Position numbers and translations under genes: made by a program. 41,259 nucleotides of DNA from Verrucomicrobiota bacterium (GTDB lineage Bacteria > Verrucomicrobiota > Verrucomicrobiia > Opitutales > UBA953), in contig JAPLTV010000013.1 in the NCBI GenBank assembly GCA_026397955.1, positions 1-41,259 of the forward strand, given 5' to 3'. The notes under the pieces were generated by a model. The model had not been told where the DNA came from, did not search any database, and saw only the letters and a program-made list of their open reading frames with translations. This document shows, piece after piece, positions 1,039-22,334 of this stretch; position 1 is the first letter of the stretch, and every line of letters starts with the position of its first letter.

Positions 1039-4731
<3,693 letters not shown>

Positions 4732-4733
4732 CC

Positions 4734-5057: not shown

Positions 5058-5061
5058 GGCC

Positions 5062-5152
5062 GCGTTCGCCGCACGGTGAACGCAAAGGTAGGGGCGAGGC
5101 TACGCCGCGCCCTTTTGGGGCTAACAGGGCATGACGTAGTCCTGCCCCTACC
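5062..5152. repeat. Short inverted pair of GTAG-foot hairpins with leader hairpin (island A)
   Basis: A leader stem (5062-5070 with 5075-5083, GCGTTCGCC against GGTGAACGC, loop GCAC) is followed by an inverted pair of units. The left unit has GGTAG at 5087-5091 and a hairpin at 5092-5112 (GGGCGAGGC / TAC / GCCGCGCCC). The right unit, on the minus strand, has GGTAG at 5152-5148 and a hairpin at 5147-5127 (GGGCAGGAC / TAC / GTCATGCCC). The outer 9 bp GGTAGGGGC and GCCCCTACC are exact inverted repeats. The arms differ between the two units, yet each pairs 8 of 9. The same leader-plus-pair layout recurs at 18616-18699. Form resembles REP/SMAG elements; function unknown. Confidence 0.85.
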
Positions 5153-5183
5153 CTGCGGCCACCATCCGGCGGCCACGGGCTAA

Positions 5184-5309
5184 GGTAGGGGCGCGACGGC
5201 GTCGCGACCGTTCGCAAGGAGGCACATGCGATCTCAATGAGCCTGGCTAAGGGCCGACGACTTCCCGCCAGCGGGTTCGAACGGCGGTGATGGCAATCAC
5301 CGCCCTGCC
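5184..5309. repeat. Long (126 bp) composite GTAG-hairpin element, copy 1
   Basis: The left end is GGTAG (5184-5188) plus hairpin 5189-5209 (GGGCGCGAC / GGC / GTCGCGACC). The right end, read on the minus strand, is GGCAG (5309-5305) plus a perfect 9-bp hairpin at 5304-5283 (GGCGGTGAT / TGCC / ATCACCGCC). Between them are the blocks CCGTTCGC, ACATGCG and GCTAAGGGCCGA-C-GACTT. The element at 10610-10734 (125 bp) shares these blocks in the same order, and the two right-end hairpins are identical. Because the internal sequence is shared as well as the ends, this is a defined element and not just two nearby hairpins. Confidence 0.85.
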
Positions 5310-5321
5310 CGAGGCAGACGA

Positions 5322-5386
5322 GGACAGCACATGGTGCGGTCCCTACCCTCGATACAGCTATGTCGTGACGCGGTCCCGACCCTACC
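5322..5386 (-). repeat. Two tandem GTAG-foot hairpin units (island A)
   Basis: Read on the minus strand, two further units stand head-to-tail behind the long element. The first has GGTAG 5386-5382 and hairpin 5381-5361 (GGTCGGGAC / CGC / GTCACGACA; 7 of 9 pairs). The second has GGTAG 5347-5343 and hairpin 5342-5322 (GGACCGCAC / CAT / GTGCTGTCC; 8 of 9 pairs). The first foot begins 2 nt after the stop codon of the Gfo/Idh/MocA gene, so an mRNA of that gene would carry this hairpin immediately at its 3' end. The whole 331-bp gap 5058-5388 is filled by these repeats; I see no gene in it. Confidence 0.82.
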
Positions 5387-5388
5387 AA

Positions 5389-6411
5389 TTACTTTCCGGC
5401 GGCGACTTCGGCGCGGGCTTTGGCGAGGACGTCAGCGAGCTTCACTTCGGCGCCGCCCTGGCGTTTGCTCTCATCGGCGGCTTCCATGAAGGCGTAAAGT
5501 TCGAGGGTCTCTTCGGCGGAGACCTGCGGCTTGCCCGTGCGGAACATCTTCACGACGGATTCAAGCAGGACTTCGTAGCCGTCAAACTTGCCGATATCGG
5601 CTTCGCCTTTGTCGCCGACGGCTTTGCCGCCGTAGGGTCCGCCCTTGGCCTTACGATCCGCTTCGCGATAGATACCCACGCGGCCTTCGCCCCAGTTGCC
5701 CGTGACCTGGATCATACCCGCGGCGGACTTGTCGCGCTTCACCGAGAGGCAGCCCGTGCCCATGACGGTGTAAAGGCTTTCGCAACCGTGGACGCCATAC
5801 CAGTAGAGGTCAGGGTGATGCGGCTCGAGGCTGGCTGGGCTGGTGGTGTAAGCCGTCTTCACCTTACCGACAGAACCATTATGCACCGCTTGGGTGCCGG
5901 CCGCGAAGCGGAGGGACGAGGAGCAGAAATACACCACGCCGGCTTTCTTCGCGGCTTCCTGGATACGGATGACGTCGGCCAGCGAGCCGCCGATCGGCTT
6001 GTCGATAAAGACCGTCTTGCCGGCCTTCAGCACCGGCAGGATCTGCTCGAGGTGGACGCGGCCGTCGTTGGATTCCAGCATCACGAAGTCGACCTGCGCG
6101 CAGAGCTTCTCGATCGAATCGACGATTTCGACGCCCATGCCCTGGAGCTTGGCCGTGTAGTCGGGCACGTGGACGGTGCTTTCCGGGATGTCCTTGCTGC
6201 CTTGGGCGAAGGCGGCCGTCACGCGGAAGCCGGCGAACTTCGCGGCGTCGGCGGGGTTCTTCGGACCCTTGTTGAAGACCGTGGTGAACGCCACGACGTG
6301 CGACGTATCGAGGCCGATGATGCCAATCCTCTTCGGGGCTTCTTCGGCGAAGAGCGAGGAGACAAAGACGGACGCGACGGCGACCATGCGGGCAAGACTG
6401 GGGAGGGTCAT
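5389..6411 (-). CDS. Exported Gfo/Idh/MocA-family oxidoreductase
   Basis: The 340-residue protein begins with a probable Sec signal (hydrophobic 'MVAVASVFVSSLFA', cleavage near residue 22-24), followed by 'RIGIIGLDTSHV', the first strand and turn of the NAD(P)-binding fold in an atypical form with a DTSH loop. It continues with 'VDFVMLESNDGRVHLEQ' and the family hallmark 'FIDKPIGGS' (the E/D-K-P motif). Members oxidise or rearrange sugars and polyols, and exported versions are frequent in Verrucomicrobiota and Planctomycetota. The substrate cannot be read from the sequence. It is last in a minus-strand run after the LysE-type gene, with a 50-bp gap, and its 3' end abuts repeat island A. A second ATG at codon 9 is an alternative start. 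Confidence 0.85.
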   Translation of the reverse strand: MTLPSLARMVAVASVFVSSLFAEEAPKRIGIIGLDTSHVVAFTTVFNKGPKNPADAAKFAGFRVTAAFAQGSKDIPESTVHVPDYTAKLQGMGVEIVDSIEKLCAQVDFVMLESNDGRVHLEQILPVLKAGKTVFIDKPIGGSLADVIRIQEAAKKAGVVYFCSSSLRFAAGTQAVHNGSVGKVKTAYTTSPASLEPHHPDLYWYGVHGCESLYTVMGTGCLSVKRDKSAAGMIQVTGNWGEGRVGIYREADRKAKGGPYGGKAVGDKGEADIGKFDGYEVLLESVVKMFRTGKPQVSAEETLELYAFMEAADESKRQGGAEVKLADVLAKARAEVAAGK

Positions 6412-6461
6412 GCCTCTTTATAAATCGGCGACTGACAGCTTACAAGCACCCGGGGCGTCGG

Positions 6462-7094
6462 TTAATGCTGACCTTCGAGCAATTGCCAGACTCGCCAGGC
6501 CATTAGTACGCCCAGTGCCAGCCATAGTAGACCGAGCACGCGATCGACCCAACGGATGGTCGCCGCGTCCTTTAGTCGAACCCGGAGACGATCCCCGATG
6601 AAGGCGTAGAAACTCATCACGCCGATCTCCGATCCCAAAGTGCAGAGCAGGAACACGCCCGTCGTCAACCAAGCGAAGGCATCGGTGGGCACATTCGCCG
6701 CCTGGATGATGATGAGGAAGAACGGGATGGTCTTCGGGTTCGAGAAGTTCACCCACGTGCCGCGCAGGAAAAGTCCGAGCGCCCCACCCTCTAGCCCGGC
6801 GGATTCCGGCAAGCTCGAGCGCGGGTGCGTGAGATGGGTGAACGCGAGATAGAGGAAGTAAGCCAGCCCGGAGACGGCGATGGCAGTCATCGCATAAGGC
6901 ACATGCTGCGCGAGCCAGTGCGTACCGAAAAGCGCCAGGAACAGGTGCGGCGTCTCGCCGACCGCGAGGCCGAGCGTGTGCCAAAAGGCGCGACGCTGTC
7001 CGTAGCGGAGTGACGTCTCGATTGTCGACAGCGCCGCCGGCCCGGGCGAGAGGCTCGCGGTCAGGCAGGAGGCGATGAGCAGGCCGACGTTCAT
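6462..7094 (-). CDS. LysE/RhtB-family amino-acid exporter
   Basis: This is a 210-residue membrane protein with about six hydrophobic segments and the N-terminal family signature 'LTASLSPGPAALSTIETSLRYG' (residues about 11-32; the S-P-G-P motif is diagnostic). It also has 'GLAVGETPHLFLALFG', 'WVNFSNPKTIPFFL' (the conserved N-P-K motif) and a C-terminal 'WVDRVLGLLWLALGVLMAW'. LysE/RhtB proteins export amino acids such as lysine, arginine, threonine or homoserine lactones across the inner membrane. The start is 6 bp after the argH stop codon, so the two are almost certainly co-transcribed. That makes arginine or a related basic amino acid a reasonable guess for the cargo, but this is inference from position. 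Confidence 0.9.
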   Translation of the reverse strand: MNVGLLIASCLTASLSPGPAALSTIETSLRYGQRRAFWHTLGLAVGETPHLFLALFGTHWLAQHVPYAMTAIAVSGLAYFLYLAFTHLTHPRSSLPESAGLEGGALGLFLRGTWVNFSNPKTIPFFLIIIQAANVPTDAFAWLTTGVFLLCTLGSEIGVMSFYAFIGDRLRVRLKDAATIRWVDRVLGLLWLALGVLMAWRVWQLLEGQH

Positions 7095-7100
7095 CCGCGC

Positions 7101-8507
7101 TTAGCGGAGGGACTGCTTCCAGCGCGCGATCTCGCGGGCGACGGCCTTGGGGCCGGGCATGCCCGTGTTCTCGCGTGCGGCGAAGCCACGCTTGAGGCTG
7201 AAGACCTCGCGCCAGCCCTTCGTGAACGCCTGGTCAGCGGTCAACGCAGCGGCGTCGGAAAGTTTGTCGAGCGGCACACCGGACTTCTCGGCAAGCGCGA
7301 CGAGGCGGCCGACCGCATGGTGGGCGTGGCGGAATGGCATACCCTTGCGAACGAGCCAATCGGCGAGGTCGGTGGCGAGGAGCGCGGGATCGGAGGCAGC
7401 GGCGAGGCAGCGGGCCTGGTGGAACTTCGTGCCCGCAAGCGTGGCGTCGGCCACGGCGACGGACAGGATGAGCTGGTCGGCGGCGTCGAAGAGCGGCGGC
7501 TTGTCGTCCTGCAGGTCGCGATTATAGGTGAGCGGCAGGCCTTTCGTGAGCGTGAGCAGGTGCGTGAGCGAAGCCTGGAAGCGCGCGGCCTTGCCACGCA
7601 GCAGCTCCATCGAGTCAGGATTGCGCTTCTGCGGCATCAGCGAAGAACCCGTCGAGAATTCGTCGGGCATGCGCGCGAAGCCGAACTCCGCGGAGGACCA
7701 GAGGACCATGTCCTCGGCCAGGCGGGAGAGGTGGACGCCGCAGAGGGCGGCGGCGAAGCAGAACTCCGTGGCCGGATCGCGGTCGGCGACGGCGTCCATC
7801 GAATTACGGGTGACCTGCGGGCGGCCTTTCGCGTCGACGAAGCCGAGGAGCTTCGCCGTCACTTCGCGGCGGATCGGGAGGGTCGTGCCGGCGATGGCGC
7901 CAGAGCCCAGCGGGCACCAGTTAGCGGAAGCCTTGGCGGCGGCGAGACGGACGCGGTCGCGGCCGAACATCTCGGCGTAGGCGAGGAGATGGTGGGCGGC
8001 GGAGACCGGCTGGGCGCGCTGCAGGTGCGTGTAGCCAGGCAGGATCACATCGGCGTTGGCCTCGGCGAGCTTCACCAAAGTCTTGAGCAGCGAGACGAGG
8101 GCTTCATCGGCGGCGTCGCACTGGTCCTTGATCCACAGACGGACGTCGGTGGCGACCTGGTCGTTACGTGAGCGGGCCGTGTGCAGCTTGGCGGCGGCCG
8201 GGACGCGCTTCGTGAGCGCGCTTTCGATGTTCATGTGCACGTCCTCGAGGTCGCGGCTCCAGGTGAACTTGCCGGCGGCGATCTCCTTGGCGATGGCGTC
8301 GAGGCCGCGCAGGATCGCGTCACGCTCCTTCTTCGTCAGAATACCCGCCTGGGCGAGCATCGTGGCATGGGCCTTCGAGCCGCGGATATCCTGGGCCCAG
8401 AGACGATGGTCGAACGAGACCGACTCGCCGAAACGCAGCATCAATTCGGCAGGACCGGCGCTGAACCGGCCGCCCCAGGTGGCCTGGGCTTTCTTCCGTG
8501 CGGACAT
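7101..8507 (-). CDS. argH: Argininosuccinate lyase ArgH
   Basis: ArgH cleaves argininosuccinate to arginine and fumarate, the last step of arginine synthesis. The 468-residue protein begins '[19 protein letters not shown]', with the typical 'WGGRF'. It carries 'EDVHMNIE', '[12 protein letters not shown]', '[12 protein letters not shown]'-like sequence ('[13 protein letters not shown]'), and the flexible catalytic loop '[12 protein letters not shown]' at about 287-298. Length is typical (about 460). The frame is open 13 codons further upstream, but the ATG at 8507 begins the conserved sequence. The LysE-type exporter follows after 6 bp; the FtsB-like gene lies 45 bp upstream. Confidence 0.97.
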
Positions 8508-8552
8508 GACCAAGGAATGCCCCCGGAAAGGCGGGCAGGCAAGCAAGGATGC

Positions 8553-8927
8553 TCAGCGGCTGGCTTGAGCGGGAGCAACCGGAGCCGGTGCGGGCTTCTG
8601 CGGCGTCGCCATGTTGCGAGCGCCGTCGAGGCGGATCACGACCTCGCCGGGCTCGGCGACGCCCATGCGTTCGCGGGCCTGGTCACGGACGAATTCAGGG
8701 TCGCGGCCAAAACGTTCGACGTAGCGTTCGGTCTGGGCGCGCGTGCGTTCGAGGGCGGCGTAAGCCTGCTCCTTCTGATACTCGTTGGCGCGGATGCCGG
8801 CCAAGCGAGCGGTCTCGTCGCCATAGGTCGACCAGGTGAACGCAAGGACCGTGCAAAAGAGAATGAACGCGGCCCAGAGAAACAGCTTCTCCGTCTGAGG
8901 ATTCCGGGACGTGGGCTCGCTTTCCAT
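8553..8927 (-). CDS. FtsB/DivIC-like septum formation initiator protein
   Basis: The 124-residue protein has a short cytoplasmic N-terminus, one membrane span (about 15-33, 'LFLWAAFILFCTVLAFTW') and then a helical segment with coiled-coil character ('EYQKEQAYAALERTRAQTERYVERFGRDPEFVRDQARERMG'). It closes with 'MGVAEPGEVVIRLD', the family's typical 'R-x-x-x-G-x-x-x-P-G-E' tail, and a Pro/Ala-rich end. FtsB/DivIC proteins link FtsL and FtsQ/DivIB in the divisome and help activate septal peptidoglycan synthesis. The gene lies between a DUF420 gene and argH on the minus strand. The Pro/Ala-rich tail of about 20 residues looks like an unstructured extension. Confidence 0.82.
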   Translation of the reverse strand: MESEPTSRNPQTEKLFLWAAFILFCTVLAFTWSTYGDETARLAGIRANEYQKEQAYAALERTRAQTERYVERFGRDPEFVRDQARERMGVAEPGEVVIRLDGARNMATPQKPAPAPVAPAQASR

Positions 8928-8984
8928 GACGACCGCGCGAGTGAAAGCGGAAATCGAATACGGAGCGAGGGGAAAATCGCCGGC

Positions 8985-9473
8985 CTACTTCGTCGCCAGC
9001 TGAGCCGCGGCGGCGAGGGAGCCGCTGAACTCCATGAAGGCCCAGACGATGACGCCGGTGACCGAGACGTAGAGCCAGACGGGGAAGACCCAGCGGACGA
9101 GCTTCTTGTGCTCCTCGAGGCGATCGTGCTTGGCCAGCCAGACGGCGCGGACGATGAAGGGGGTGACCAGGATCGCCAGGATGACGTGCGGGATCAGGAT
9201 CAGGAGGTAGAGAGACTTGAGACCGACCCAAGCCGAGTTCGGCTCAGGCGCATAAGTGATGTTGGTGCGACCTAAAGCGACCCAGAGGTGGACCTTCGAG
9301 GCCAGGTAGAGCGCCAGGAACAGGGCTGAGGTCAGTACGGCCGCGCCCATCGCCTTGCCGTGGCCGGCGCGGTCGCCCGCCTTGATTTTGGCGAAGCCAA
9401 TCAGGAGGAAGACCGTGGCCAGGGCGTTCATGCCGGCGACGGAGCGGGAAAGGAGTTCGGTGGTAGAGGCCAT
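8985..9473 (-). CDS. DUF420 integral membrane protein
   Basis: This 162-residue protein has four hydrophobic segments: 'GMNALATVFLLIGFAKI', 'AAVLTSALFLALYLASKVH', 'LYLLILIPHVILAILVTPFIV' and 'WVFPVWLYVSVTGVIVWAFM'. It carries spaced histidines (in 'DRAGHGKAM', 'SKVHLWV', 'IPHVILA', 'LEEHKKLVRW') in the pattern of DUF420 (YozB/CtaM-related) proteins. Members are often found near cytochrome oxidase genes and have been linked to heme-copper oxidase maturation; no oxidase gene is visible here. The ATG at 9473 begins the recognisable protein; the open frame six codons further upstream is less likely. It is divergent from the YHYH gene. Confidence 0.82.
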   Translation of the reverse strand: MASTTELLSRSVAGMNALATVFLLIGFAKIKAGDRAGHGKAMGAAVLTSALFLALYLASKVHLWVALGRTNITYAPEPNSAWVGLKSLYLLILIPHVILAILVTPFIVRAVWLAKHDRLEEHKKLVRWVFPVWLYVSVTGVIVWAFMEFSGSLAAAAQLATK

Positions 9474-9548
9474 GGGGCCAAGGAGAACCACTTTTAAGGA
9501 AAAGCCAACCTCAGGCCGCCCTTAACCTTCACTTAAGGCTAAATCTGG

Positions 9549-9554
9549 TATCAT
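9549..9554 (+). promoter_or_regulatory. Possible -10 element (TATCAT) for the YHYH gene
   Basis: TATCAT matches the sigma-70 -10 consensus in five of six positions and lies 14 nt before the YHYH start codon. No convincing -35 box is visible at 16-18 nt spacing. If it is used, the 5' leader would be only a few nucleotides of pyrimidine-rich sequence. Confidence 0.35.
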
Positions 9555-9568
9555 TCCCCCCACGCCCC

Positions 9569-10597
9569 ATGAACCCGACCCTCTGCCTTCTCCTCACCGC
9601 CGCCGCGCTGGTCGCCGCCGACGCCCCTAAGGGCCCTGCCCTCAAGGAAGCCGACGCCAAGCCGCCCGGCCAGAACAAGGTCACCTTCACCGTCAAGGGC
9701 GACAAGCGCGTCATCGAGTCCAATGGGATCCCCGACCACAAGGTCGCGACCTTCCCTAACCGCGGCAACCCCAACGCCATCTCGGAGCAGAAGTATCGCC
9801 TCGAAGTTCCGGCCAACCCTCAGCCGCTCACCGGCGGCGCGACCGGCCGGATGATGTCGGCCTGGGGCGTCGCCCTGAACGGCGTCGTCTTTGATCCGGG
9901 CACTGCCGAAGTCTACAATGACGGCGATCGCAGCAACCCGTGGCACTACGAGGCACTGATGAGCAACACCGAGATGGGCACGACCCCGAAGATCAAGGTC
10001 GGTCTGGGCCTCGACCAGAATCACGGGCACGTCCAACCCAACGGCGCCTACCACTATCACGGCATCCCCTCCCTGCTCTTCGAACGCCTCTCCGGCGGAG
10101 AAAAGAAGATGACCCAGGTCGGCTGGGCCGCGGACGGCTTCCCGGTCTATGCCGTCTACGCCTTCGCCAAATCCGAGGATCCCAAGAGCGAGCTGAAGAA
10201 GATGAAGAGCAGCTATCGCCTCAAGACCGCCGACCGCGGGGGCGACGGCAAGGAGACCCCGACCGGCAAGCCCGACGGCGCGTTCGGCCTCGACTTCGAA
10301 TACGTCGCCGGCTCGGGCGACCTCGACGAGTTCGGTGGTCGCGCCGGCGTGACCCCGGAATTCCCGAAGGGCACCTACTACTACGTGATGACCGAGGAAT
10401 ACCCGTTCATCCCCCGTAAGTTCAAGGGCACGCCTGACCCCTCTTTCAGCAAACAGAAGATGGATCCCCACTCCAACCTCGGCGGCCAGGGCGGCCCCGG
10501 CGCCAAGGGCGGTAAGAAGGGCAAGAAGGGCCCGCCTCCTGGCGGCTCGGGCGCCCCTCCCCAGGACGGCCCGCCTCCCGAAGGCGCGGCGAAATAA
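9569..10597 (+). CDS. Secreted YHYH-domain protein
   Basis: The 342-residue protein starts with a short Sec signal (about 1-18, 'LCLLLTAAALVAADA'). The family motif Y161-H162-Y163-H164 occurs in 'NGAYHYHGIP', preceded by 'LGLDQNHGHVQPN' and followed by 'VGWAADGFPVYAVYAF'. The C-terminal domain contains 'GDLDEFGGRAGVTPEFPKGTYYYVMTEEYPF', characteristic of YHYH proteins. The last 45 or so residues are a low-complexity Gly/Pro/Lys tail ('GGKKGKKGPPPGG'), probably disordered. The clustered His and Tyr suggest metal binding, but YHYH proteins have no established reaction that I can name. It is divergent from the DUF420 gene, and its 3' end is followed 12 bp later by repeat island B. The start has no Shine-Dalgarno sequence. 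Confidence 0.88.
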   Translation: MNPTLCLLLTAAALVAADAPKGPALKEADAKPPGQNKVTFTVKGDKRVIESNGIPDHKVATFPNRGNPNAISEQKYRLEVPANPQPLTGGATGRMMSAWGVALNGVVFDPGTAEVYNDGDRSNPWHYEALMSNTEMGTTPKIKVGLGLDQNHGHVQPNGAYHYHGIPSLLFERLSGGEKKMTQVGWAADGFPVYAVYAFAKSEDPKSELKKMKSSYRLKTADRGGDGKETPTGKPDGAFGLDFEYVAGSGDLDEFGGRAGVTPEFPKGTYYYVMTEEYPFIPRKFKGTPDPSFSKQKMDPHSNLGGQGGPGAKGGKKGKKGPPPGGSGAPPQDGPPPEGAAK

Positions 10598-10609
10598 TCC
10601 GGCTTTCAA

Positions 10610-10734
10610 GGTAGGGACGTGGTTGCCATCACGTCCGTTCGCGGGCGGACATGCGGGGTCAGTGCCCTTAGCTAAGGGCCGATGACTTGCCGACCACGGA
10701 CTCAAACGGCGGTGATGGCAATCACCGCCCTACC
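10610..10734. repeat. Long (125 bp) composite GTAG-hairpin element, copy 2
   Basis: The left end is GGTAG (10610-10614) plus hairpin 10615-10636 (GGACGTGG / TTGCCA / TCACGTCC). The right end on the minus strand is GGTAG (10734-10730) plus a perfect hairpin at 10729-10708, the same 22 nt as in the 5184-5309 copy. The interior shares CCGTTCGC, GGACATGCG and GCTAAGGGCCGA-T-GACTT with that copy, and includes the 14-bp palindrome CCCTTAGCTAAGGG. The left hairpins of the two copies have unrelated stems. The element begins 12 bp after the YHYH stop codon. Confidence 0.85.
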
Positions 10735-10763
10735 CCACTTCGCGACCTAACTGCCTCTGCCTT

Positions 10764-10827
10764 GGTTAGGGCGCGGCTCTCCGAGCCAGCCGCCATCAGA
10801 CGGACGGCTCGGAGAGCCGTCCCTACC
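10764..10827. repeat. Short (64 bp) inverted pair of GTAG-foot hairpins (island B)
   Basis: The left unit has GGTTAG (10764-10769, a one-base variant foot) and hairpin 10770-10791 (GGCGCGGCTC / TCC / GAGCCAGCC). The right unit on the minus strand has GGTAG 10827-10823 and hairpin 10822-10802 (GGACGGCTC / TCC / GAGCCGTCC, 9 of 9 pairs). The two inner stems share GGCTC/GAGCC, so the pair could also fold as one longer cruciform. It lies 17 bp beyond the stop codon of the PDZ gene. The 247-bp gap 10598-10844 otherwise holds nothing recognisable. Confidence 0.82.
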
Positions 10828-10844
10828 TGAGGCGGCGAGAAGAC

Positions 10845-11786
10845 TTACGCGCCCTGCTTGGGGTCGTATTTCTTCTTCGGCTCTTCGGTGGGAGCCGGCG
10901 TCGCGTTGCCTGGAAAGCCCGGCAGGGTGAAGTTCTTGCCCTCGACGAGCTTCAGGCGGCGACGGACGTCGGCCGGCAATTTCTCGACCGCAGACTTATC
11001 GGTGACATCGCCGTCGAAGAGCGTCTTGCCGTCGCGATCTTTCACGACGGCGTGCTTCTTGCCGTCCTTCTCCTCGAGCGAGACCGTGCCCTCGGCATCC
11101 GAAGCCATCGAGGTAGAGGAAGATTTCGCGCCATTACCGAAGCTGAACGAGAACGAATGCGAAGAAGACGAACGGGCGCCGGACTGCGCGCGAAGCTCAT
11201 CCGCCGAAGGATTCGGCGCACGGGCGGGCGTCGGGATTGCGCCAGACTGGAGATCCTGCAACTGCTTGAGCAATTCAGGCGGGATCGCGCCGCCCGGCGT
11301 AATCGTAATACCATTGGGCGTCTCGATGACGCCGGCACGACCGGCGCGAGCACCGGAGCGGTCGGCGGAAGCCAGCTTCTCCGCCGGCCTGGAGCCGAGC
11401 GCGAAATCGACGATCATCGGCTCGACGCCACGGACGAGAGTGAGCTTCACCTTTTCGCCCGGTTTACGCGTGCGCACGAGCGCGCGGAACTGCTCAGCGT
11501 TGAACAGCATCTGGTCGTCGAGGCGCGTGAGGATATCGCCTTCCTCGACCTTACCCGCGGACGGGCCCTTCGGATCGATGAAGCCAACTTGGATGCCAAC
11601 GCCCGCGGGCACCGTGGTGTTGGCCGTTTCGATGCGCGGTCCGACGTTAAGGCCGGCATAGGCGACCTCGCCGGAAGCGGCGAGCTTGGCGGCGGGGGTC
11701 TCGTTATCCTTGTCCTTGGCCTGCATCGGACAGACGAGTCCGGCGAGCAGGAGCATGTGGAGCGGAATCTGGCGGAGGGAGTTCAT
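10845..11786 (-). CDS. Secreted PDZ-domain protein of the ECF sigma operon
   Basis: The 313-residue protein has a Sec signal (about 1-23, 'LHMLLLAGLVCPMQA') and a single PDZ domain at about 50-130, seen as 'GVGIQVGFIDPKGPSAGKVEEGDILTRLDDQMLFNAEQFRALVRTRKPGEKVKLTLVR'. After it comes a long, Ser- and Pro-rich, probably flexible region and a short folded-looking end ('DKSAVEKLPADVRRRLKLVEGKNFTLPGFPG'). There is no protease domain. It follows the anti-sigma candidate by 44 bp and has its own AAAGGA 6 nt before the ATG, the only strong Shine-Dalgarno I noticed among the starts I compared; that decides the start. PDZ domains bind exposed C-termini, so a periplasmic sensor or adaptor role for the sigma system is possible, but unproven. 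Confidence 0.8.
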   Translation of the reverse strand: MNSLRQIPLHMLLLAGLVCPMQAKDKDNETPAAKLAASGEVAYAGLNVGPRIETANTTVPAGVGIQVGFIDPKGPSAGKVEEGDILTRLDDQMLFNAEQFRALVRTRKPGEKVKLTLVRGVEPMIVDFALGSRPAEKLASADRSGARAGRAGVIETPNGITITPGGAIPPELLKQLQDLQSGAIPTPARAPNPSADELRAQSGARSSSSHSFSFSFGNGAKSSSTSMASDAEGTVSLEEKDGKKHAVVKDRDGKTLFDGDVTDKSAVEKLPADVRRRLKLVEGKNFTLPGFPGNATPAPTEEPKKKYDPKQGA

Positions 11787-11830
11787 GGCGGGTCCTTTGT
11801 AAGTTAAGCGACGGAGGTCGGCGGATTTGT

Positions 11831-12250: not shown

Positions 12251-12746
12251 GGGTGCGGGCGGTGATGTGTTTGCGCAGGGCCTCCATGGCGTAGCGCCAC
12301 CGCGAGGCCGCGGTGTTGGGGGAAATCGAAAGTTGTTCGCCAATCTCGTCGAAGGTCAGTTCACCCCACACCTTGAGCACGACGACCTCGCGTTGCTCGG
12401 TGGGCAGGAGCTTCAACGAATCGACTAGGGCAGCCAGCCGCGGATCGGCTTCGGGCTCAAACCAGCTCACCGTCTCCATGTCGTCGCCGACGACCTTCTC
12501 GCGGGCCGCGCGCCGGTCGCCGCGACGCAGGAGATCAAGGGCGGCGCGGCGGAGGGAGGTCACCACGAGGGCGTTCGGGTTACCGGGCAGGTGACGTTGA
12601 TGTTTCCAAAAGCGAACAAATGCCTCCTGCAAGACGTCGTCCGCATCGGCCTCACACCGGGTCCACTGACGCGCGATCAGCCGGAGCCTGGCGCCGTGTT
12701 CGGCGAACCAGGCCCGCCAATCCTGATCGGCATGGGCATCGGGCAT
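12243..12746 (-). CDS. ECF-type RNA polymerase sigma factor
   Basis: The 167-residue protein has the two-domain ECF layout. Region 2 is at about 15-80 ('ARLRLIARQWTRCEADADDVLQEAFVRFWKHQ', with the D-x-L-Q-E-x-F motif) and region 4 at about 105-160 ('LPTEQREVVVLKVWGELTFDEIGEQLSISPNTAASRWRYAMEALRKH', a clear helix-turn-helix). There is no region 1 or 3, as expected for this group. It redirects RNA polymerase to a small regulon and is usually held inactive by a co-encoded anti-sigma factor, here the overlapping downstream gene. It is transcribed away from the desaturase operon across a 118-bp shared region containing a dyad. Confidence 0.93.
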   Translation of the reverse strand: MPDAHADQDWRAWFAEHGARLRLIARQWTRCEADADDVLQEAFVRFWKHQRHLPGNPNALVVTSLRRAALDLLRRGDRRAAREKVVGDDMETVSWFEPEADPRLAALVDSLKLLPTEQREVVVLKVWGELTFDEIGEQLSISPNTAASRWRYAMEALRKHITARTHD

Positions 12747-12774
12747 CTTGTAATAGAGGGCGTCGCGGGCGGGC

Positions 12775-12798
12775 GGATTTGTCTACCCGGGACAATCC
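12775..12798. promoter_or_regulatory. Dyad in the sigma factor/desaturase intergenic region
   Basis: GGATTTGTC and GACAATCC form an inverted repeat of 8 pairs with one bulged base around a TACCCGG spacer. It sits in the 118-bp space between two divergent operons, 29 bp upstream of the sigma factor start and 67 bp upstream of the desaturase start. It could be an operator or promoter element acting on both sides. No motif match to a known regulator is claimed. Confidence 0.4.
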
Positions 12799-12864
12799 TG
12801 GCGGGCGGGGCAAAAGCGTCAAAGCAGTTGCGAAACGCCCCCTCCCCTTCTAACTGCAAACCAG

Positions 12865-13845
12865 ATGCCCACCCCCCTTGCCCAGCGCCCCGAGGACGGA
12901 TTCTTCCGATCCCTGATCCGCTGGTTCGATGCGGACCACATCCCGGAAGGGGTCGAGGCCCTCCAAAGCTCCCCCAAGAAGGTGGATTGGCTCCGTTCCA
13001 TCCCCTTCATCCTCCTCCACTTGGTCTGCTTCGCCGTCATCTGGGTCGGGGTCAGCCCGATCGCCGTCTGGACCGCTGTCGGCCTCTACTTCTTCCGGAT
13101 GTTCGCGATCACCGGCTTCCTCCACCGCTACTTCTCGCACAAGACCTACTCCACCTCGCGCGCCTTCCAGTTCGTGATGGCCGTCTGGGCCGCCTTGGCC
13201 GTCCAGCGCGGCGCGCTCTGGTGGGCCTGCACGCACCGCCACCACCACAAGCATTCCGACGAAGAAGAGGACAAGCACTCCCCGGTCGTCGACGGTTTCT
13301 GGTGGTCGCACATCGGCTGGATCACCGCCAAGCGGAATTTCCCGACCGATTACTCGAAGATTCCCGATCTCGCGAAATACCCCGAGCTGGTCTTCCTTAA
13401 CCGCTTTGACATCCTCATCCCACTGCTCGCGGGCGGCCTGACCTACGGCGCCGGCGCCTGGCTCGGCGCGCATGGCTACGACACCAACGGCCCCCAGCTC
13501 CTCGTCTGGGGGATCATCTCGACCGTCGTGCTCTTCCACGGCACCGGCTGCATCAACTCCCTCGCCCACGTCTTCGGCACCAAGCGCTTCCAGACCACCG
13601 GTGACGAGTCCCGCAATTCGCTGATCCTCACGCTCATCACCCTCGGTGAAGGCTGGCACAACAACCACCACCGCTATCAGGCCACGACGAAGCAGGGCTT
13701 CTACTGGTGGGAGTTCGATCCGACCTATTACGGCCTCAAGGTTATGTCATGGATGGGATTGATCTGGGGCCTCAAGGGCGTGCCGGCTTCGGTCTACGAG
13801 GAGGCGGAACGCACCAAGGCGGAGGCCTCCTCTTCGCGTGCGTGA
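12865..13845 (+). CDS. Membrane fatty-acid (acyl-CoA-type) desaturase
   Basis: The 326-residue integral membrane di-iron desaturase has all three histidine boxes: H87-R-Y-F-S-H92, H124-R-H-H-H128 and H265-N-N-H-H269. About four membrane spans flank them ('FILLHLVCFAVIWVGV', 'VGLYFFRMFAITGF', 'ILIPLLAGGLTYGAGAWL', 'LLVWGIISTVVLF'). The pattern matches the delta-9 stearoyl-CoA desaturase-like family. Such enzymes insert a cis double bond into acyl chains, which would give the substrate for the methyltransferase encoded downstream. It overlaps the FAD oxidoreductase gene by 8 nt. It lies divergent from the ECF sigma operon, so it may belong to that regulon. The start has no Shine-Dalgarno. Confidence 0.93.
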   Translation: MPTPLAQRPEDGFFRSLIRWFDADHIPEGVEALQSSPKKVDWLRSIPFILLHLVCFAVIWVGVSPIAVWTAVGLYFFRMFAITGFLHRYFSHKTYSTSRAFQFVMAVWAALAVQRGALWWACTHRHHHKHSDEEEDKHSPVVDGFWWSHIGWITAKRNFPTDYSKIPDLAKYPELVFLNRFDILIPLLAGGLTYGAGAWLGAHGYDTNGPQLLVWGIISTVVLFHGTGCINSLAHVFGTKRFQTTGDESRNSLILTLITLGEGWHNNHHRYQATTKQGFYWWEFDPTYYGLKVMSWMGLIWGLKGVPASVYEEAERTKAEASSSRA

Positions 13846-15115
13846 ACGCATCGCCATCGTCGGCTCGGGCGTGAGCGGCCTCGGTTGCCTTCGCTTCCTG
13901 CGTGCGCATCACGACGTCACCGTCTTCGACCACGATACCCGCCCCGGCGGCCACGCGCACACCATCGACGTCACCGAACCCGGCACCGGGCGGGCGCTGC
14001 CGATGGACACCGGCTTCATGGTCTTCAACGAGGTGACGTACCCGCACCTCTGCCGGCTCTTCAAGGAACTCGGCGTGAAGCCCAAGCAGACCTCGATGTC
14101 CTTCGCGGTCCGCCACGACCCGACCGGGCTGGAATGGTGCGGTAGCTCGCTTAATCACCTCTTCGCCCAACGCCGTAACCTCTTCAACCTGCGCTTCTGG
14201 AAGCTGCTGCTCCAGATCAATAAATTCAACAAGGTCGCCAAGACTGAGTGGCGATCCACCGAGGCCGAGACGACCTCGCTCCGCGATTGGTGCGCCCGCA
14301 AGGGTTTTGGCCAAGACTTCCTCGACCTCTACCTGATTCCCATGTCGGCCGCGGTCTGGTCGACGCCGGCGGACAAGATGCTTGGCTTCCCGGCCGCGGC
14401 GCTGATGCGCTTCTTCCATAACCATGGCTTCCTCGGCCTCGACACCCAGCACCAGTGGCTCACGCTCGAGGGCGGTTCACGGACTTACGTCAACGCGTTG
14501 CTCAAGGCGCACCCGGCCGATTTTCGTTTTGGTCAAGGCGTCACCTCCGTCCGCCGCGACGGCCAGCAGGTCATCGTGACGACGGCCAACGGAGAGGAAC
14601 GCTTCGATCGCGTGATCATGGCCTCGCATGCCGATACCACACTGAAGCTGTTGTCCGATGCCGACGCCGAGGAGCGCCGCCTGCTCGGCGCCTTCACCTA
14701 TAATCAGAACGTCGCCATCGTGCATACCGACACGGGGCCGCTCCCTCGCTCCGCGAAGGCGCGCTCCTCTTGGAACTACCGCACCTGGGCCAAGGACGGC
14801 GGCCTCGCGACCTCGACGCACTACTGGATGAATTCGCTGCAGGGCCTCACGGACAAAGGCGACTTCGTTGTCACGATCAACCACCCCGAACAGGTCGACC
14901 CCGTGAAGGTCCTCCGCACCATCCCGACCGAGCACCCGCTCTTCTCGCTCGAGGCCGTCGCGGCGCAGGCCGAGATCCCCACCCTCAACGCCCGGACCGG
15001 CGCACGCACGCACTTCGTCGGCGCGTGGCAACGCTACGGTTTCCACGAAGACGGCTTCTGGTCGGCCCACCGGCTCTGCTCGCAACTCCTCGGGCGCGAC
15101 GCTTGGACGGCCTGA
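13838..15115 (+). CDS. NAD/FAD-binding oxidoreductase of the cyclopropane-lipid cluster (COG2907 type)
   Basis: The 425-residue flavoprotein begins with a GTG codon inside the end of the desaturase gene (8-nt overlap). The dinucleotide-binding fold is at the N-terminus ('IAIVGSGVSGLG', residues about 5-16), followed by 'TVFDHDTRPGGHAHTIDV', the FAD-contact G-G-H motif. Proteins of this amine-oxidase-like group typically sit next to a DUF1365 gene and a cyclopropane-fatty-acid-synthase-like gene, exactly as here. In Rhodobacter, related genes in a comparable cluster take part in furan fatty acid formation; whether this protein does the same is inference. No signal peptide, so probably cytoplasmic, at the membrane face. 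Its stop codon shares a TGATCA hexamer with the stop of the next, opposite-strand gene. Confidence 0.88.
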   Translation: MRERIAIVGSGVSGLGCLRFLRAHHDVTVFDHDTRPGGHAHTIDVTEPGTGRALPMDTGFMVFNEVTYPHLCRLFKELGVKPKQTSMSFAVRHDPTGLEWCGSSLNHLFAQRRNLFNLRFWKLLLQINKFNKVAKTEWRSTEAETTSLRDWCARKGFGQDFLDLYLIPMSAAVWSTPADKMLGFPAAALMRFFHNHGFLGLDTQHQWLTLEGGSRTYVNALLKAHPADFRFGQGVTSVRRDGQQVIVTTANGEERFDRVIMASHADTTLKLLSDADAEERRLLGAFTYNQNVAIVHTDTGPLPRSAKARSSWNYRTWAKDGGLATSTHYWMNSLQGLTDKGDFVVTINHPEQVDPVKVLRTIPTEHPLFSLEAVAAQAEIPTLNARTGARTHFVGAWQRYGFHEDGFWSAHRLCSQLLGRDAWTA

Positions 15116-16405
15116 TCAGAAGGCGATCTTCTGGGTCTGACGTTCAAAGCCTTCGGCCTGGAAAAGAGGCTCCGGATTCATCTTCACGATATCAGCCACA
15201 TAACGATCCGGTACGCGCTCAAGGCGGATGTTATAGAACGTCGCAATATTCGCATGGTAGGCGCGGGCGAGCGCGATGCGATCCTCGGTCTCGACAAGGT
15301 TCTTACTGAGTTCAGCGAAGACCTGCTGCCCCTTGAGCTCCGGATACTGTTCGGCCACCGCAACCAGCATCGGCCCCACGGCGGAAGGCCTGGCCCCGGC
15401 CGCCTGCGCGCGGAGCGCAGCGACCAGCGTCTGCACCGACGCCTCGTGGGCGCGGAAACCCTGCACGCACCCGACCAGCGGAGGAATCAGATCGGCCCGA
15501 CGCTTCAGCTGGATATCAATCAATGAAGACGCCTGCCGGACGCGATTGCGCAGGCCGGTGATGCTGTTGAAGACCATCCAGACCCAGCCAGCGCCGGCCG
15601 CGAATAGGTAGAGGCCGAGGCCAATAAATAACCCGATCGGCGCGACGTCGGGACGGGCCCCGGCCATAAGGGCAGCGCCGAAGCCAGCGGCGCAGGCGGC
15701 CCCGACGACATGCCAAAGGACGAAGGCGGTAGCTTTCCCTTCGCTGACCTCATGCGCCTTGCGCGTCGTGATAATGAACATATCCGCCTTGTCCTCGTGC
15801 TTGATCTGGGCGGCGACGATGTCGGGGCGCTCGCTCGCGCGACCGCGGACGAAGAGCGGCGTGCCGATGACGAGACCGTACTCGGTGAAGCTGCGTTCGC
15901 CGGTCGAACCTTCGACGGCATCGTCGGGACCCTTGTCGTAGTAAAGCGGGTCGTCGCGATCGACGTCGCGCTCGAACATCGTGAGCGTGTCCATGTCGGC
16001 GCCCTCGGGGTTGACCCAGACGTAGCCGGTGTCGTCCTGGATATAGAAGCCGCCCGACTCGCCGCCGGAGGCGACGGTATCCGATCCCGTATCGATCACC
16101 GTGCGGGTCCTCGTGTTACCCTTATCATCGGTATAGGTCTCTTGCCGGGCGCGGCGCCAATGTTCGTCCACTGACCAGCGGTAGACGACGCAGGGCTTCT
16201 CGGCCAGGTAGCTGATAAACGGGTCGCGGCGGACGCAGACGCCCTCGACCTCGACCTCCCCGACGAAGACGCCCAGCGCCTTCGAGATCGGGGTGTCGTC
16301 GAGCAGGCGACGCTTACGGCCGGCGTTCAACGCAAGGAGCATGCACCCGCCGGAGGCAAGGAGAGCGATCAGACCGGCTCCGGAGGCATCTTGGGACACG
16401 GTCAT
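15116..16405 (-). CDS. GIDE-LemA fusion membrane protein
   Basis: The 429-residue protein joins two known modules. After an N-terminal membrane span (about 9-28), residues about 35-225 resemble the GIDE/MULAN domain ('GVFVGEVEVEGVC', 'CVVYRWSVDEHWRR', 'GGFYIQDDTGYVWVNPEGADMD', 'EYGLVIGTPLFVRGRA'). Two spans follow at about 236-285. The rest is a LemA domain ('LRNRVRQASSLIDIQLKRRADLIPPLVGCVQGF', 'ETEDRIALARAYHANIATFYN'). LemA proteins are membrane-anchored helical bundles of unclear role; GIDE takes its name from mitochondrial ubiquitin ligases, but no RING finger is present here. It is coded against the surrounding lipid genes. Start set at the internal ATG at 16405; an 18-codon upstream extension is possible. 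Confidence 0.85.
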   Translation of the reverse strand: MTVSQDASGAGLIALLASGGCMLLALNAGRKRRLLDDTPISKALGVFVGEVEVEGVCVRRDPFISYLAEKPCVVYRWSVDEHWRRARQETYTDDKGNTRTRTVIDTGSDTVASGGESGGFYIQDDTGYVWVNPEGADMDTLTMFERDVDRDDPLYYDKGPDDAVEGSTGERSFTEYGLVIGTPLFVRGRASERPDIVAAQIKHEDKADMFIITTRKAHEVSEGKATAFVLWHVVGAACAAGFGAALMAGARPDVAPIGLFIGLGLYLFAAGAGWVWMVFNSITGLRNRVRQASSLIDIQLKRRADLIPPLVGCVQGFRAHEASVQTLVAALRAQAAGARPSAVGPMLVAVAEQYPELKGQQVFAELSKNLVETEDRIALARAYHANIATFYNIRLERVPDRYVADIVKMNPEPLFQAEGFERQTQKIAF

Positions 16406-16489
16406 CGTTATGCCCAGGCCGGACGGTTTAGCAAGGTTTCGGCGAGGGGACGCTTGCACCTGACCCTGTTCCTTTCACCCTGCGGACAG

Positions 16490-17341
16490 ATGCCCCGACT
16501 GTACGATGCGGAAGTGATGCACGCCCGGCTCCGGCCGAAGCGTCATGACTTCACGCATGCAGCCTTCGCCGTGGCCGTGGACGCCGCGACCCTCGGGTCC
16601 GTGCGCGGCGGCCGATTCATGCTGGGTCGGCGATACTCGCCGTACTGTTTTCGCGACCAGGATTTCCTGCCGGCCGCGGAACTCTTCCAGCCGGAAGGCG
16701 TGGCGCAGAATTTTGGCCAAGCGGGCGATTCGCTAGACAGGCGCTTCCGAGCCTTCGTCGCCGCCCAAGGCGAACCCCTGCCGGCCCACGCCCAGATTAC
16801 CTTAGTCGCGATGCCCCGCGCCTTCGGAAAATCCTACAACCCCGCCGTCTTCATGATGGCGACCGTGGATGGCGAGCTCACCTGCGGCGTCGCCGAGGTC
16901 CATAATACCTTCGGCGAACGCAAGGCATGGTTCTTGGGTAAGGCGTGCCTAAAGCGAGATCATGATGGCGACACGTTCCTACAGCTCCGCACCCCGAAAC
17001 GTTTCTACGTCTCCCCTTTCTCGAAACTCGATACTGAATTCGAATTCACCCTGCGCCTACCGGACGGCCGGCTGGCATTGACGGTCGATCACTACGAAGA
17101 CGGCGACCGGTCTCTGACTAGCGCCTGGACGGGCAGGCTGGTGCCGCTGACGGACCTCCGCCTGCTCTGGCTGACCCTCAAGTCGCCCTTGCTGATCCTC
17201 AAGGTCATCACGCTGATCCATCTACACGCCGCCTGGCTTTGGCTGGTGAAGAAACTTCCCTTCCGCCGAAAAGGGGCTGACATTCCCGACCAACGCAACC
17301 TGCGGCACCCTACCCCTGAACTTACTGGACGACATGACTAA
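16490..17341 (+). CDS. DUF1365 protein of the lipid-modification cluster
   Basis: The 283-residue protein matches the DUF1365 (COG3496) pattern: 'LYDAEVMHARLRPKRHDFTHAAF' at the start (the conserved R-H-x-F after a short strand), 'RRYSPYCFRDQDF', 'VTLVAMPRAFGKSYNPAVFM'-like sequence ('ITLVAMPRAFGKSYNPAVF', a conserved S-Y-N-P-V block), 'EVHNTFGERKAWFL' and 'FYVSPFSKLDTEFEF'. Family members nearly always neighbour COG2907 and cyclopropane-synthase-like genes, but their reaction is not established. It overlaps the methyltransferase start by 8 nt, so the two are translationally coupled. The frame is open 33 codons upstream of the chosen ATG, but that part reads as non-conserved and runs over the GIDE-LemA leader. 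Confidence 0.9.
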   Translation: MPRLYDAEVMHARLRPKRHDFTHAAFAVAVDAATLGSVRGGRFMLGRRYSPYCFRDQDFLPAAELFQPEGVAQNFGQAGDSLDRRFRAFVAAQGEPLPAHAQITLVAMPRAFGKSYNPAVFMMATVDGELTCGVAEVHNTFGERKAWFLGKACLKRDHDGDTFLQLRTPKRFYVSPFSKLDTEFEFTLRLPDGRLALTVDHYEDGDRSLTSAWTGRLVPLTDLRLLWLTLKSPLLILKVITLIHLHAAWLWLVKKLPFRRKGADIPDQRNLRHPTPELTGRHD

Positions 17342-18545
17342 GCCTTCCCTCGCCCGCCGCCTCGTCCTGGGAGAACTTGCGAAGCTCTCCAAAGGCCGCC
17401 TTTCATTGCGCCTGCCCGAAGGCACGGAGCTCATCCTCGGCGACCCGCAGGCCAAGTCCGGAGCGCGCATCGAGATCGCGGACGAGAATGCCTTCCGCCG
17501 CATCATGCTCGCGGCCGACATCGGCCTCACCGAGGGCTACATGGAAGGCGAATGGGATTCTCCCGACCTCAACGCCCTCATCGGCTTCTTCATCGAGAAC
17601 ATCGACCAGACCCCTGGCATGTCCGGCTCGGCCCGCAAGGCCCTCGGAGTCGGCCTCTTCCGCATCGCCGACCGCATCGGCCACCTCCTGCGTCCGAACG
17701 ACAAGAAGACCGTCCGACGTAATATCTCGGAGCACTACGACGTCTCCAACGATTTCTTCCGCCTCTTCCTGGATCCGTCGATGATGTATTCGTCGGCGCG
17801 CTGGGAAGGCACGGACTCGCTCGAACAGGCGCAGACGAATAAGAATGACGCCCTCTGCCGATTCCTGCAGCTCAAGCCGACCGACCATGTCATCGAGATT
17901 GGCACCGGCTGGGGTGGCTGGGCGCTACATGCCGTCAAGAAGTACGGCTGCCGCGTGACCTCTCTCACGATCTCAAAGGCGCAGCACGACCTCGCCGTCG
18001 AGCGCATCCAAGCCGCCGGCCTCTCCGATCGCATCACCGTGAAGCTCGAGGACTTCCGCGACCATCAAGGCCTGTATGACAAGTGCGTCTCCATCGAGAT
18101 GATGGAAGCCCTTGGACACAACTACCTGTCCGCCTTCTGCGCCTCCATCGGCCGCCTGCTGAAGCCCGATGGCATCGCCGCGTTCCAATACATCACCTGC
18201 CCGGACAGCCGCTACGCGCAGTTCCGTGACGGCGTGGACTTCATCCAGAAGCACATCTTCCCCGGATCGCTCCTGCTCTCGATCAACCGCGTCGGCGACC
18301 TCATGACCAGCGAGAGCGGCTTCCAGCTCGACCGCGTCGAGGAGTTCGGCCGTGACTACGCGCGCACGCTCGATGCGTGGTGCCAGGCCTTCGAAGCCAA
18401 CCTCGGCAAGGTGCGCGGCATGGGCTTCGACGAGCGCTTCATCCGCAAGTGGCGCCTCTACTTCCGCTACTGCCAGGCCGCGTTCGAGCACCGCAACATC
18501 GGCGTCGTCCAGGCCGTGTACGTCCGCCCGAACAGGAAGGGGTAA
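17334..18545 (+). CDS. Cyclopropane-fatty-acid-synthase-family methyltransferase
   Basis: The 403-residue SAM-dependent methyltransferase is of the Cfa/CmaA type. Residues 1-130 are the N-terminal lipid-facing part, then 'RRNISEHYDVSNDFFRLFLDPSMMYSSARW', the family's hallmark entry to the catalytic domain. The SAM loop 'VIEIGTGWGGWALHA' is at 186-200, and later come 'LTISKAQHDLAVERI', 'SIEMMEALGHNY' and 'CPDSRYAQFRDGVDFIQKHIFPGS'. Such enzymes add a methylene or methyl group from SAM to the cis double bond of phospholipid acyl chains. With the linked desaturase, FAD enzyme and DUF1365 protein, the product could be a cyclopropane, branched or furan fatty acid; sequence does not decide. Its 3' end is followed by repeat island C. 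Confidence 0.92.
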   Translation: MTKPSLARRLVLGELAKLSKGRLSLRLPEGTELILGDPQAKSGARIEIADENAFRRIMLAADIGLTEGYMEGEWDSPDLNALIGFFIENIDQTPGMSGSARKALGVGLFRIADRIGHLLRPNDKKTVRRNISEHYDVSNDFFRLFLDPSMMYSSARWEGTDSLEQAQTNKNDALCRFLQLKPTDHVIEIGTGWGGWALHAVKKYGCRVTSLTISKAQHDLAVERIQAAGLSDRITVKLEDFRDHQGLYDKCVSIEMMEALGHNYLSAFCASIGRLLKPDGIAAFQYITCPDSRYAQFRDGVDFIQKHIFPGSLLLSINRVGDLMTSESGFQLDRVEEFGRDYARTLDAWCQAFEANLGKVRGMGFDERFIRKWRLYFRYCQAAFEHRNIGVVQAVYVRPNRKG

Positions 18546-18615
18546 CGCGACGCTTCGCGAGGGGACACGTGGGTAAGTTGACACGTGGACAAGGGGAAGT
18601 GACGGTGTCGCGTCC

Positions 18616-18699
18616 GTTCGCCGCAGGGCGAACCATGGTAGGGGCACGATTCATCGTGCACTCCGCAACAGGAGGGCGCGGCGAAGCCACGCCCCTACC
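18616..18699. repeat. Short inverted pair of GTAG-foot hairpins with leader hairpin (island C)
   Basis: The leader stem is 18616-18622 with 18627-18633 (GTTCGCC / GCAG / GGCGAAC). It precedes a left unit with GGTAG 18637-18641 and a hairpin within 18642-18662 (core GCACGA / TTCA / TCGTGC). The right unit on the minus strand has GGTAG 18699-18695 and hairpin 18694-18674 (GGGCGTGGC / TTC / GCCGCGCCC, one G-T pair). The leader and its spacing match the element at 5062-5152; a G-C pair here replaces a G-T pair there. Just upstream, at 18565-18588, ACACGTGG occurs twice, 16 bp apart; meaning unknown. Confidence 0.83.
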
Positions 18700-18713
18700 C
18701 CAGGCCGCCCTAC

Positions 18714-18776
18714 GGCGGCCCGAGGAGGTCGGCCCTACCCGAGAGACCTAGGACAGCACGTGGTGCTGTCCCTACC
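18714..18776 (-). repeat. Two tandem GTAG-foot hairpin units (island C)
   Basis: Read on the minus strand, the unit nearest proS has GGTAG 18776-18772 and a perfect hairpin 18771-18751 (GGACAGCAC / CAC / GTGCTGTCC). Behind it is a degenerate unit, GGTAG 18739-18735 with hairpin 18734-18714 (about 6 of 9 pairs). The first closely resembles the unit at 5322-5347, including the spacer that leads into a TCGGGYAGGG of the next unit. It begins 4 nt after the proS stop codon. The 235-bp gap 18546-18780 holds no gene. Confidence 0.8.
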
Positions 18777-18780
18777 TTTA

Positions 18781-22309: not shown

Positions 22310-22334
22310 AAAAAGGCCGCCTGAAAAGGCGGCC
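22310..22334 (-). terminator. Rho-independent terminator downstream of rpsR
   Basis: On the minus strand, an 8-bp stem GGCCGCCT/AGGCGGCC with a TTTC loop (22334-22315) is followed by five T residues (22314-22310). It lies 23 bp past the rpsR stop codon and separates rpsR from the Sua5-type gene, so the latter needs its own promoter or readthrough. Confidence 0.85.

Follow-up and report, generated by a model that had tools for sequence, protein, structure and literature searches.

In Escherichia coli, the repetitive extragenic palindromes (REPs) and bacterial interspersed mosaic elements (BIMEs) have a GTAG foot, occur as pairs of unlike hairpins, and are associated with the HUH/Y1 protein TnpA_REP (structure 4er8). 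The SMAG REPs of Stenotrophomonas comprise 13 classes linked to REP-associated tyrosine transposases (RAYTs); 8-9 perfect pairs stand directly at GT(A/G)G, many classes occur in the genus, each lies near a RAYT, and most copies form REPINs, i.e., head-to-head pairs, with a common foot and class-specific stems (Nunvar 2013, PMC3686654). In Opitutus terrae, which is rich in GTAG families, these are short GTAG-tagged palindromes, with several families in the genome and dimers among them; heterodimers have been described for many GTAG families (Di Nocera 2013, PMC3733652). Here we describe 14 hairpins built on a GGTAG foot in a stretch of 41,259 nucleotides (the window) from a Verrucomicrobiota bacterium (Opitutales, UBA953), which is contig 27 of a 2.45-Mb assembly with 126 contigs. 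These hairpins are almost certainly GTAG-type REP and REPIN elements of several classes, each the substrate of its own RAYT lineage.

The window REPs resemble GTAG-17, GTAG-19 and GTAG-20 of O. terrae, an organism of the same phylum and probably of the same class. Compared by description, they differ in that GTAG-20 has mostly GTGG and the dimer partners of GTAG-17 and GTAG-19 lie 1-2 bp apart, whereas here the foot is GGTAG and the spacers are longer (PMC3733652). The traits listed above for Stenotrophomonas are also seen here; in contrast to that genus, which belongs to another phylum, feet other than GGTAG are rare here, and a single genus holds about 17 RAYT clusters at the threshold used. 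The features given for E. coli are shared as well; however, the E. coli REPs are longer and require a bulge, while most of the window hairpins have short stems with almost complete pairing and are more like the group 3 REPs of PMC8266576.

The hairpins lie in three intergenic islands (gaps 5058-5388, 10598-10844 and 18546-18780), each of which sits between convergent genes according to the list of open reading frames (ORFs). All 14 copies reported by the initial annotation in these islands were located, and its counts of feet and pairs were borne out. The foot is exactly GGTAG in 12 of them (5, 3 and 4 in the three gaps), GGCAG in one (5309, minus strand) and GGTTAG in another (10764-10769). 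A scan with 9-nt arms scored 13 copies, the GGTTAG copy being registered by hand, and found at least 8 of 9 Watson-Crick pairs in 11, seven in the copy at 5386 and six in the one at 18739. The architecture is that of five REPINs and four singles (5347, 5386, 18739 and 18776). The REPINs fold with z values of -2.4 to -5.4 (the fourth folded without its first five bases); among the single REPs, 5347 (folded one base short) and 5386 gave -1.4 and -1.9, and a third gave -4.8. No Rfam RNA family matched the window at gathering scores.

Hairpins with an exact GGTAG and at least 8/9 pairs number 10 in the window, against a mean of 0.02 and a maximum of 1 in 100 dinucleotide shuffles, and against 0.001 when only the three gaps were shuffled (1000 times). 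In a 342-kb sample of the same genome, picked around pattern hits and for this reason inflated in its GGTAG rate, GGTAG had the highest hairpin rate (150/677, 22%) among pentamers with at least 8 such hairpins, versus 0.19% over all positions. Chance palindromes are rejected on these counts.

A count over the whole genome, which had been proposed as a check, was made with a covariance model built from hairpins of the same genome and gave at least 161 matches in the 2.45 Mb (E up to 0.1); within the genus, the model matched 53 of 55 genomes, this one included. In each genome the search evaluates no more than 140 candidate stretches, hence counts near 150 are lower bounds and the E-values are rough. 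This model replaced the pattern GGTAGGGN{8,30}CCC, which was dropped as too loose because it gave 221 hits versus 115 for the reversed control in this genome, and was outnumbered by its control in most genomes from other genera as well as in some from this one.

The genome contains three intact RAYT genes (contigs 72, 58 and 1) and a broken one on contig 107. The broken gene (L271, G000:C107) is in two pieces, one of them with a TGA. A RAYT profile matched 35 of the 55 genomes of the genus, strongly (E <1e-20) in 28 of them and at 54 places; the remaining, weaker matches are other Y1 groups or short pieces. All 53 strong places examined, i.e., 44 frames picked by motif and nine that the motif filter missed and that were examined by position, lie no more than 400 bp from a hairpin with a GGTAG or GGCAG foot; the 54th, a fragment at a contig edge (G034:C17), was left out of this count. 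At the other Y1 groups of the genus, GGTAG hairpins were found at none of 15 frames (at least 14 genes). L131, a 45th frame read along with the 44 RAYTs, is also of another Y1 group and has no hairpin. At nine further Y1 places missed by the frame filter, the scanned stretches contained no hairpin in seven cases and a single poor match at L087 (7/9, with an arm not starting GG); L083 was scanned downstream only. The linkage that the initial annotation had proposed to look for, a Y1 HUH gene flanked by GGTAG hairpins in the same genome, is directly observed, and its reading of the hairpins as GTAG-foot REPs of the RAYT type is supported.

When compared with solved structures, the RAYT profile reaches 5.3e-18 with TnpA_REP (4er8) and no better than 5.7e-6 with IS200/IS605 transposases. 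The HUH motif and the catalytic tyrosine are invariant in 16 aligned sequences; PF01797 recovered 21 of the 54 strong places. Genomes with a strong RAYT match (28) hold more hairpin copies than those without one (27), with medians of 144.5 versus 51 (p 2.8e-6; per Mb, p 4.7e-5) in a comparison not corrected for relatedness or completeness.

Another characteristic feature of this system is that the stem follows the RAYT lineage. The 44 RAYT frames fall into about 17 clusters (tree distance 0.9), and the flanking hairpins are nearly constant within a cluster. All five B' RAYTs are flanked by GGACAGCAC-CAC-GTGCTGTCC; at each of the six D2 RAYTs, the closest upstream hairpin is of one type and the closest downstream hairpin of the other, two of the six showing single-letter variants; and a further class, GGGCAGCAC-CGC-GTGCTGCCC, was found at 6 of the 9 RAYT places examined by position, with five copies in the sample of the window's own genome. 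Hairpin similarity decreases with RAYT distance (Mantel rho -0.77 for 21 RAYTs, 0/10000 permutations; rho -0.53 for 44 RAYTs, 0/2000), a relationship previously reported for Stenotrophomonas (Nunvar 2010, PMC2817692). Judging from these sequences, each RAYT lineage has its own REP class, in line with the suggestion of the initial annotation that many subfamilies share one foot. The RAYTs compared within classes C, E and B', and three of the four of class B, share flanking DNA and are thus largely vertical; no shared flanks were detected by blastn for the RAYT pairs of classes A, D and F.

The stems themselves recur. In the 342-kb sample there are 21 exact copies of GGTCGGGAC-CGC-GTCACGACA, 21 of GGACGTGAT-TGCC-ATCACGTCC and 17 of GGCGGCCAT-TGCC-ATGGCCGCC, besides many stems seen once, and the variety lies largely between discrete classes with variants. 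Classes were named by the stem, the loop and the bases 3' of the stem. The window islands are mosaics of about seven of them, namely A, B', C, D, D2, F and a class with conserved mismatches; class E is absent from the window. Of the genomes searched, only relatives yielded RAYTs for classes C, D, F and B' and for the mismatched class; RAYTs for A, D2 and E were seen in the window's genome as well. At L262 (1313-1551), class C hairpins adjoining a RAYT are arranged in tandem with a period of ~40 bp. At L054 (2539-2570), a single hairpin has GGTAG at both ends, as if the middle of a class A REPIN had been lost; a hairpin with a foot at both ends has been termed "double foot" (PMC6006769).

The window hairpins were matched to those near the 44 RAYTs over 18 stem letters plus 2 for the loop (20 in all). 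The features of the window, with their best matches, are as follows.

5087..5152, plus strand: REPIN 1, class D2; hairpins 5087-5112 (+) and 5127-5152 (-) with GGTAG outside; closest RAYT-flanking hairpins 18/20 and 16/20 (L272 and others).
5184..5309, plus strand: REPIN 2, class A, 126 nt with a structured spacer; hairpins 5184-5209 (+) and 5283-5309 (-, foot GGCAG); top matches 18/20 (L164) and 16/20 (L271, L256, L003); orthologous copies in L111 and L112.
5322..5347, minus strand: single REP, class B' (diverged); 17/20 to RAYT-adjacent B' hairpins.
5361..5386, minus strand: single REP with 7/9 pairs and conserved mismatches; 20/20 to hairpins adjoining RAYTs L266 and L267; identical in L111 and L114; in L112 the stem is kept and the foot changed to GGTGG.
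10610..10734, plus strand: REPIN 3, class A; hairpins 10610-10636 (+) and 10708-10734 (-); 19/20 and 16/20 to hairpins at RAYT L003 of the same genome.
10764..10827, plus strand: REPIN 4, class F; hairpins 10764-10791 (+, foot GGTTAG) and 10802-10827 (-); the 10827 copy 20/20 to a hairpin adjoining RAYT L170, the hand-registered 10764 copy 13/20; at the orthologous site in L054 the partner hairpin has an intact GGTAG.
18590..18622, plus strand: possible truncated remnant of a class A REP beside island 3; weak match at 18594-18615 (E 0.12), together with reading of the sequence.
18637..18699, plus strand: REPIN 5, class D; hairpins 18637-18661 (+) and 18674-18699 (-), both 20/20 to hairpins at RAYT L137; orthologous copies in L124, L127, L129 and L130.
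18714..18739, minus strand: decayed single REP, probably class C, 6/9 pairs; 16/20 to hairpins at RAYTs L098 and L094; the corresponding place in L124 has a C-class REPIN.
18751..18776, minus strand: single REP, class B'; identical to hairpins at RAYTs L108, L135, L154, L156, L161 and L157.

Five of the 14 hairpins (5386, 10827, 18637, 18699 and 18776) are identical to a RAYT-adjacent one; of the others, one scored 19, two 18, one 17, four 16 and one, the GGTTAG copy, 13. Four of the six ORFs flanking the islands are above the Pfam cut-off (a GFO/IDH/MocA oxidoreductase, a YHYH protein, a CMAS methyltransferase and prolyl-tRNA synthetase); of the remaining two, one has a PDZ match just below it and one has no match. 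A conserved tract with two CACGTG motifs follows island 3, in the window as well as in L124 and L129.

Beyond the genus, we examined the best 80 of 439 relatives in a public genome set, many of which come from the window's genus and are not independent. Hairpins on a GT[AG]G foot with at least 8/9 pairs were found within 450 bp of the RAYT at 72 of these 80 loci, with GGTAG at 71; the feet were GGTAG in 229 of 237 cases, GGTGG in 6 and CGTGG in 2, and GTAG was the tetramer with most such hairpins (229/545 sites). By record label, 76 of the 80 belong to Verrucomicrobiota and two to Lentisphaerota; one is unassigned, and one is labelled Polynucleobacter (L216), probably through a binning error. 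The initial annotation knew of no description of such a family in Verrucomicrobiota; however, GTAG families have been described in O. terrae (PMC3733652). Among the search results listed, judged by title, the literature record consists of that one paper, for that one species, and it is now widened with RAYT genes attached; what is added is the presence of about 17 RAYT clusters with hairpins in one genus, and of GGTAG hairpins at 71 of 80 RAYT loci, nearly all from Verrucomicrobiota.

The two arms of the stem covary, as had been noticed initially from substitutions on one arm matched on the other, and this was seen beyond permutation in the window, in the genome sample and in the phylum-wide set. 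Nine window copies alone gave a covariation score of 0.528 versus 0.167 in shuffles (0/500 as high); two other measures on these copies, counting pairs and pair types, were not beyond shuffles (99/500 and 79/500). For 33 distinct hairpins of the same genome, a set pre-chosen for at least 7/9 pairs, 95.6% of cells pair and the score was 0.660 versus 0.180 shuffled (0/500) and at most 0.143 with the register slid, and the number of pairs changed on both sides (7/9) was not beyond shuffles (79/500). Selection by GGTAGG only, with no pairing criterion, is a fairer test: the 15 such sites in the window have a mean of 7.0/9 pairs versus 4.91 (max 6.0) with arms permuted, and 141 distinct sites of the genome sample have 6.19/9 versus 4.32 (max 4.58). 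In a phylum-wide set of 32 hairpins at least 6/18 letters apart, covariation is supported for pairs 3 to 8 (matched by 0 to 9 of 5000 permutations) but not for pair 9 (1015/5000); this set took in some spurious sites, and where more than one loop register fitted, inner pairing decided between them.

Several observations weigh against reading these hairpins as substrates of cognate RAYTs. Two RAYTs of this genome score 78.2 and 67.2 bits with NF047646 (REP_Tyr_transpos), below its 80-bit cut-off, and L002, a Y1 protein without GGTAG hairpins, scores 58.9 bits, i.e., this profile is non-discriminating. Many copies are present in G044 (146), G063 (151) and G069 (149) despite the lack of a strong RAYT match. 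The intact RAYTs of this assembly correspond only to classes E, A and D2, and most window classes have no intact cognate there, for which loss or assembly gaps must be assumed. Eight of the 80 wider loci have no hairpin. The class labels, which in favour of the reading require the least possible number of changes on a 22-row tree (0/200 shuffles as low), were assigned after the flanks had been seen; classes D and F are not clades on this tree (8 and 36% of bootstrap trees). The Mantel tests avoid class labels but not relatedness. Finally, the activity of these RAYT proteins is predicted from their sequence.

The comparison of orthologous sites bears on the alternatives. Seven sets of positional homologues were picked by hand, giving 18 comparisons with the window, i.e., 162 base pairs; only copies recognisable by the scan were compared (the L112 copy of 5386, with its changed foot, and decayed or missing copies were left out), which favours conservation. 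Of these pairs, 152 are unchanged. The DNA surrounding island 1 is 84 to 91% identical in the alignments. The ten changed pairs comprise one that is compensated, four wobble changes (to or from G-T), four one-sided breaks and one changed on both sides without both pairing; the four breaks are all at one position of the 18637 copy of the window and so probably reflect one event. The imperfect hairpin 5386 is kept exactly, mismatches included, in L111 and L114 and beside the RAYTs L266 and L267. From these data, lost pairing is not everywhere restored and class identity is retained.

At the level of whole islands, turnover is directly seen, since orthologous islands hold overlapping but differing sets of REPs. 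At the island 1 orthologue in L113 (2521-3233, G043:C32), a class B RAYT lies between two REPINs, with one flank aligning to window 5393-7500 and the opposite flank to 4273-5059; the other class B RAYTs (L103, L104 and L132) share a different locus. This arrangement suggests relocation of a RAYT unit, and it may alternatively be explained by homologous exchange between REPINs. In L114, the REPs of the orthologous island are separated by about 500 bp (~2591-3097) without a match to the window stretch compared, which would fit an uptake of DNA by islands.

It has to be considered whether selection keeps the hairpins for a role in the RNA, as terminators or mRNA protectors where convergent genes end, with the RAYT link being incidental. 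The position of all three islands agrees with this, as do the four wobble changes, and a consensus scan found no terminator-like site in the islands, while in L056 the site orthologous to island 2 (10598-10844) has no REPs and a bidirectional intrinsic terminator separates the convergent genes. That scan is weak, since sites are no more frequent than in shuffles anywhere in the window and the silence of the islands says little; the promoter scan of the window likewise gave no clear excess over shuffles. Two strong terminator-like hairpins are present outside the islands, at 22314-22335 and 33492-33515 (minus). An RNA role alone leaves unexplained the common foot, the class-specific stems that track RAYT lineages, and the RAYT genes flanked by the same hairpins, and we consider it unlikely; a role of REPs at transcript ends, which is possible from the single comparison with L056, could coexist with mobility.

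A second alternative, somewhat less likely still, is that the stems are under unconstrained drift and that compensatory mutation or template-switch repair re-establishes their pairing in situ, as in the idea of the initial annotation that the stem is free to change. The strong covariation between classes speaks for such drift, and in a few cases a change seems to have been compensated in place, namely at one pair of L111 in island 1 and, beside C-class RAYTs, at the innermost pair (L094 and L098 versus L095 and others). However, with only one of the ten changed pairs compensated and the imperfect stem 5386 kept exactly, free drift is rejected on the orthologous sites (recognisable copies only), and the L111 change could be a replacement by another copy. 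That the hairpins are miniature inverted-repeat transposable elements (MITEs) of an ordinary IS200/IS605 insertion sequence is very improbable and was rejected: the Y1 transposase fold is common to both, and Pfam Y1_Tnp matches L001 above and L003 just below the cut-off, but TnpA_REP is the closest among solved structures, such hairpins are lacking at the other Y1 groups of the genus, and the RAYTs of classes C, E, B' and most of B are largely vertical.

Regarding the mechanism of these RAYT-associated REPs, all classes stand on the GGTAG foot and, with few exceptions, their stems open with two base pairs, GG/CC. What distinguishes the classes is the loop and the pairs further in, and these go with the RAYT lineage. 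In the TnpA_REP proteins studied, the foot is needed for cutting at CT and aids strand choice, and irregularities of the loop and stem confer specificity (PMC8266576); by analogy, the foot would serve cutting and strand choice here. In 157 of 176 copies the base 5' of the foot is G or A, and the 12 bases upstream of the foot contain CT in 115 copies versus TC in 92, which is weakly suggestive of a cleavage site. We infer a model of binding, cutting and mobility in which the RAYT, a small HUH/Y1 single-strand transposase, would bind the folded single strand through the foot and the class-specific stem and loop, cut beside the folded hairpin, and spread REPINs in trans, which would then accumulate as mosaics between convergent genes.

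As a tentative extension, to which we give rather less than even credence, each RAYT could read the stem as a lineage-specific address, with the GGTAG foot guiding the cut in all of them, and the two unlike hairpins of a REPIN could be what remains of the ends, left and right, of a RAYT unit; the last point is proposed because all six D2 units carry one type upstream and the other downstream. How RAYTs distinguish hairpins has been compared in three systems (PMC8266576), and with about 17 related RAYT clusters in this genus, and more in the wider phylum, whose hairpins stand on a near-constant foot, stem specificity becomes testable by swapping. Overall, the system is of an ordinary kind but rich in number, i.e., a many-lineage REP/RAYT system in a little-studied phylum; if the stem does act as an address, this phylum would offer a natural collection of RAYT-hairpin pairs, dozens in number, in which the foot stays the same and the stem varies.

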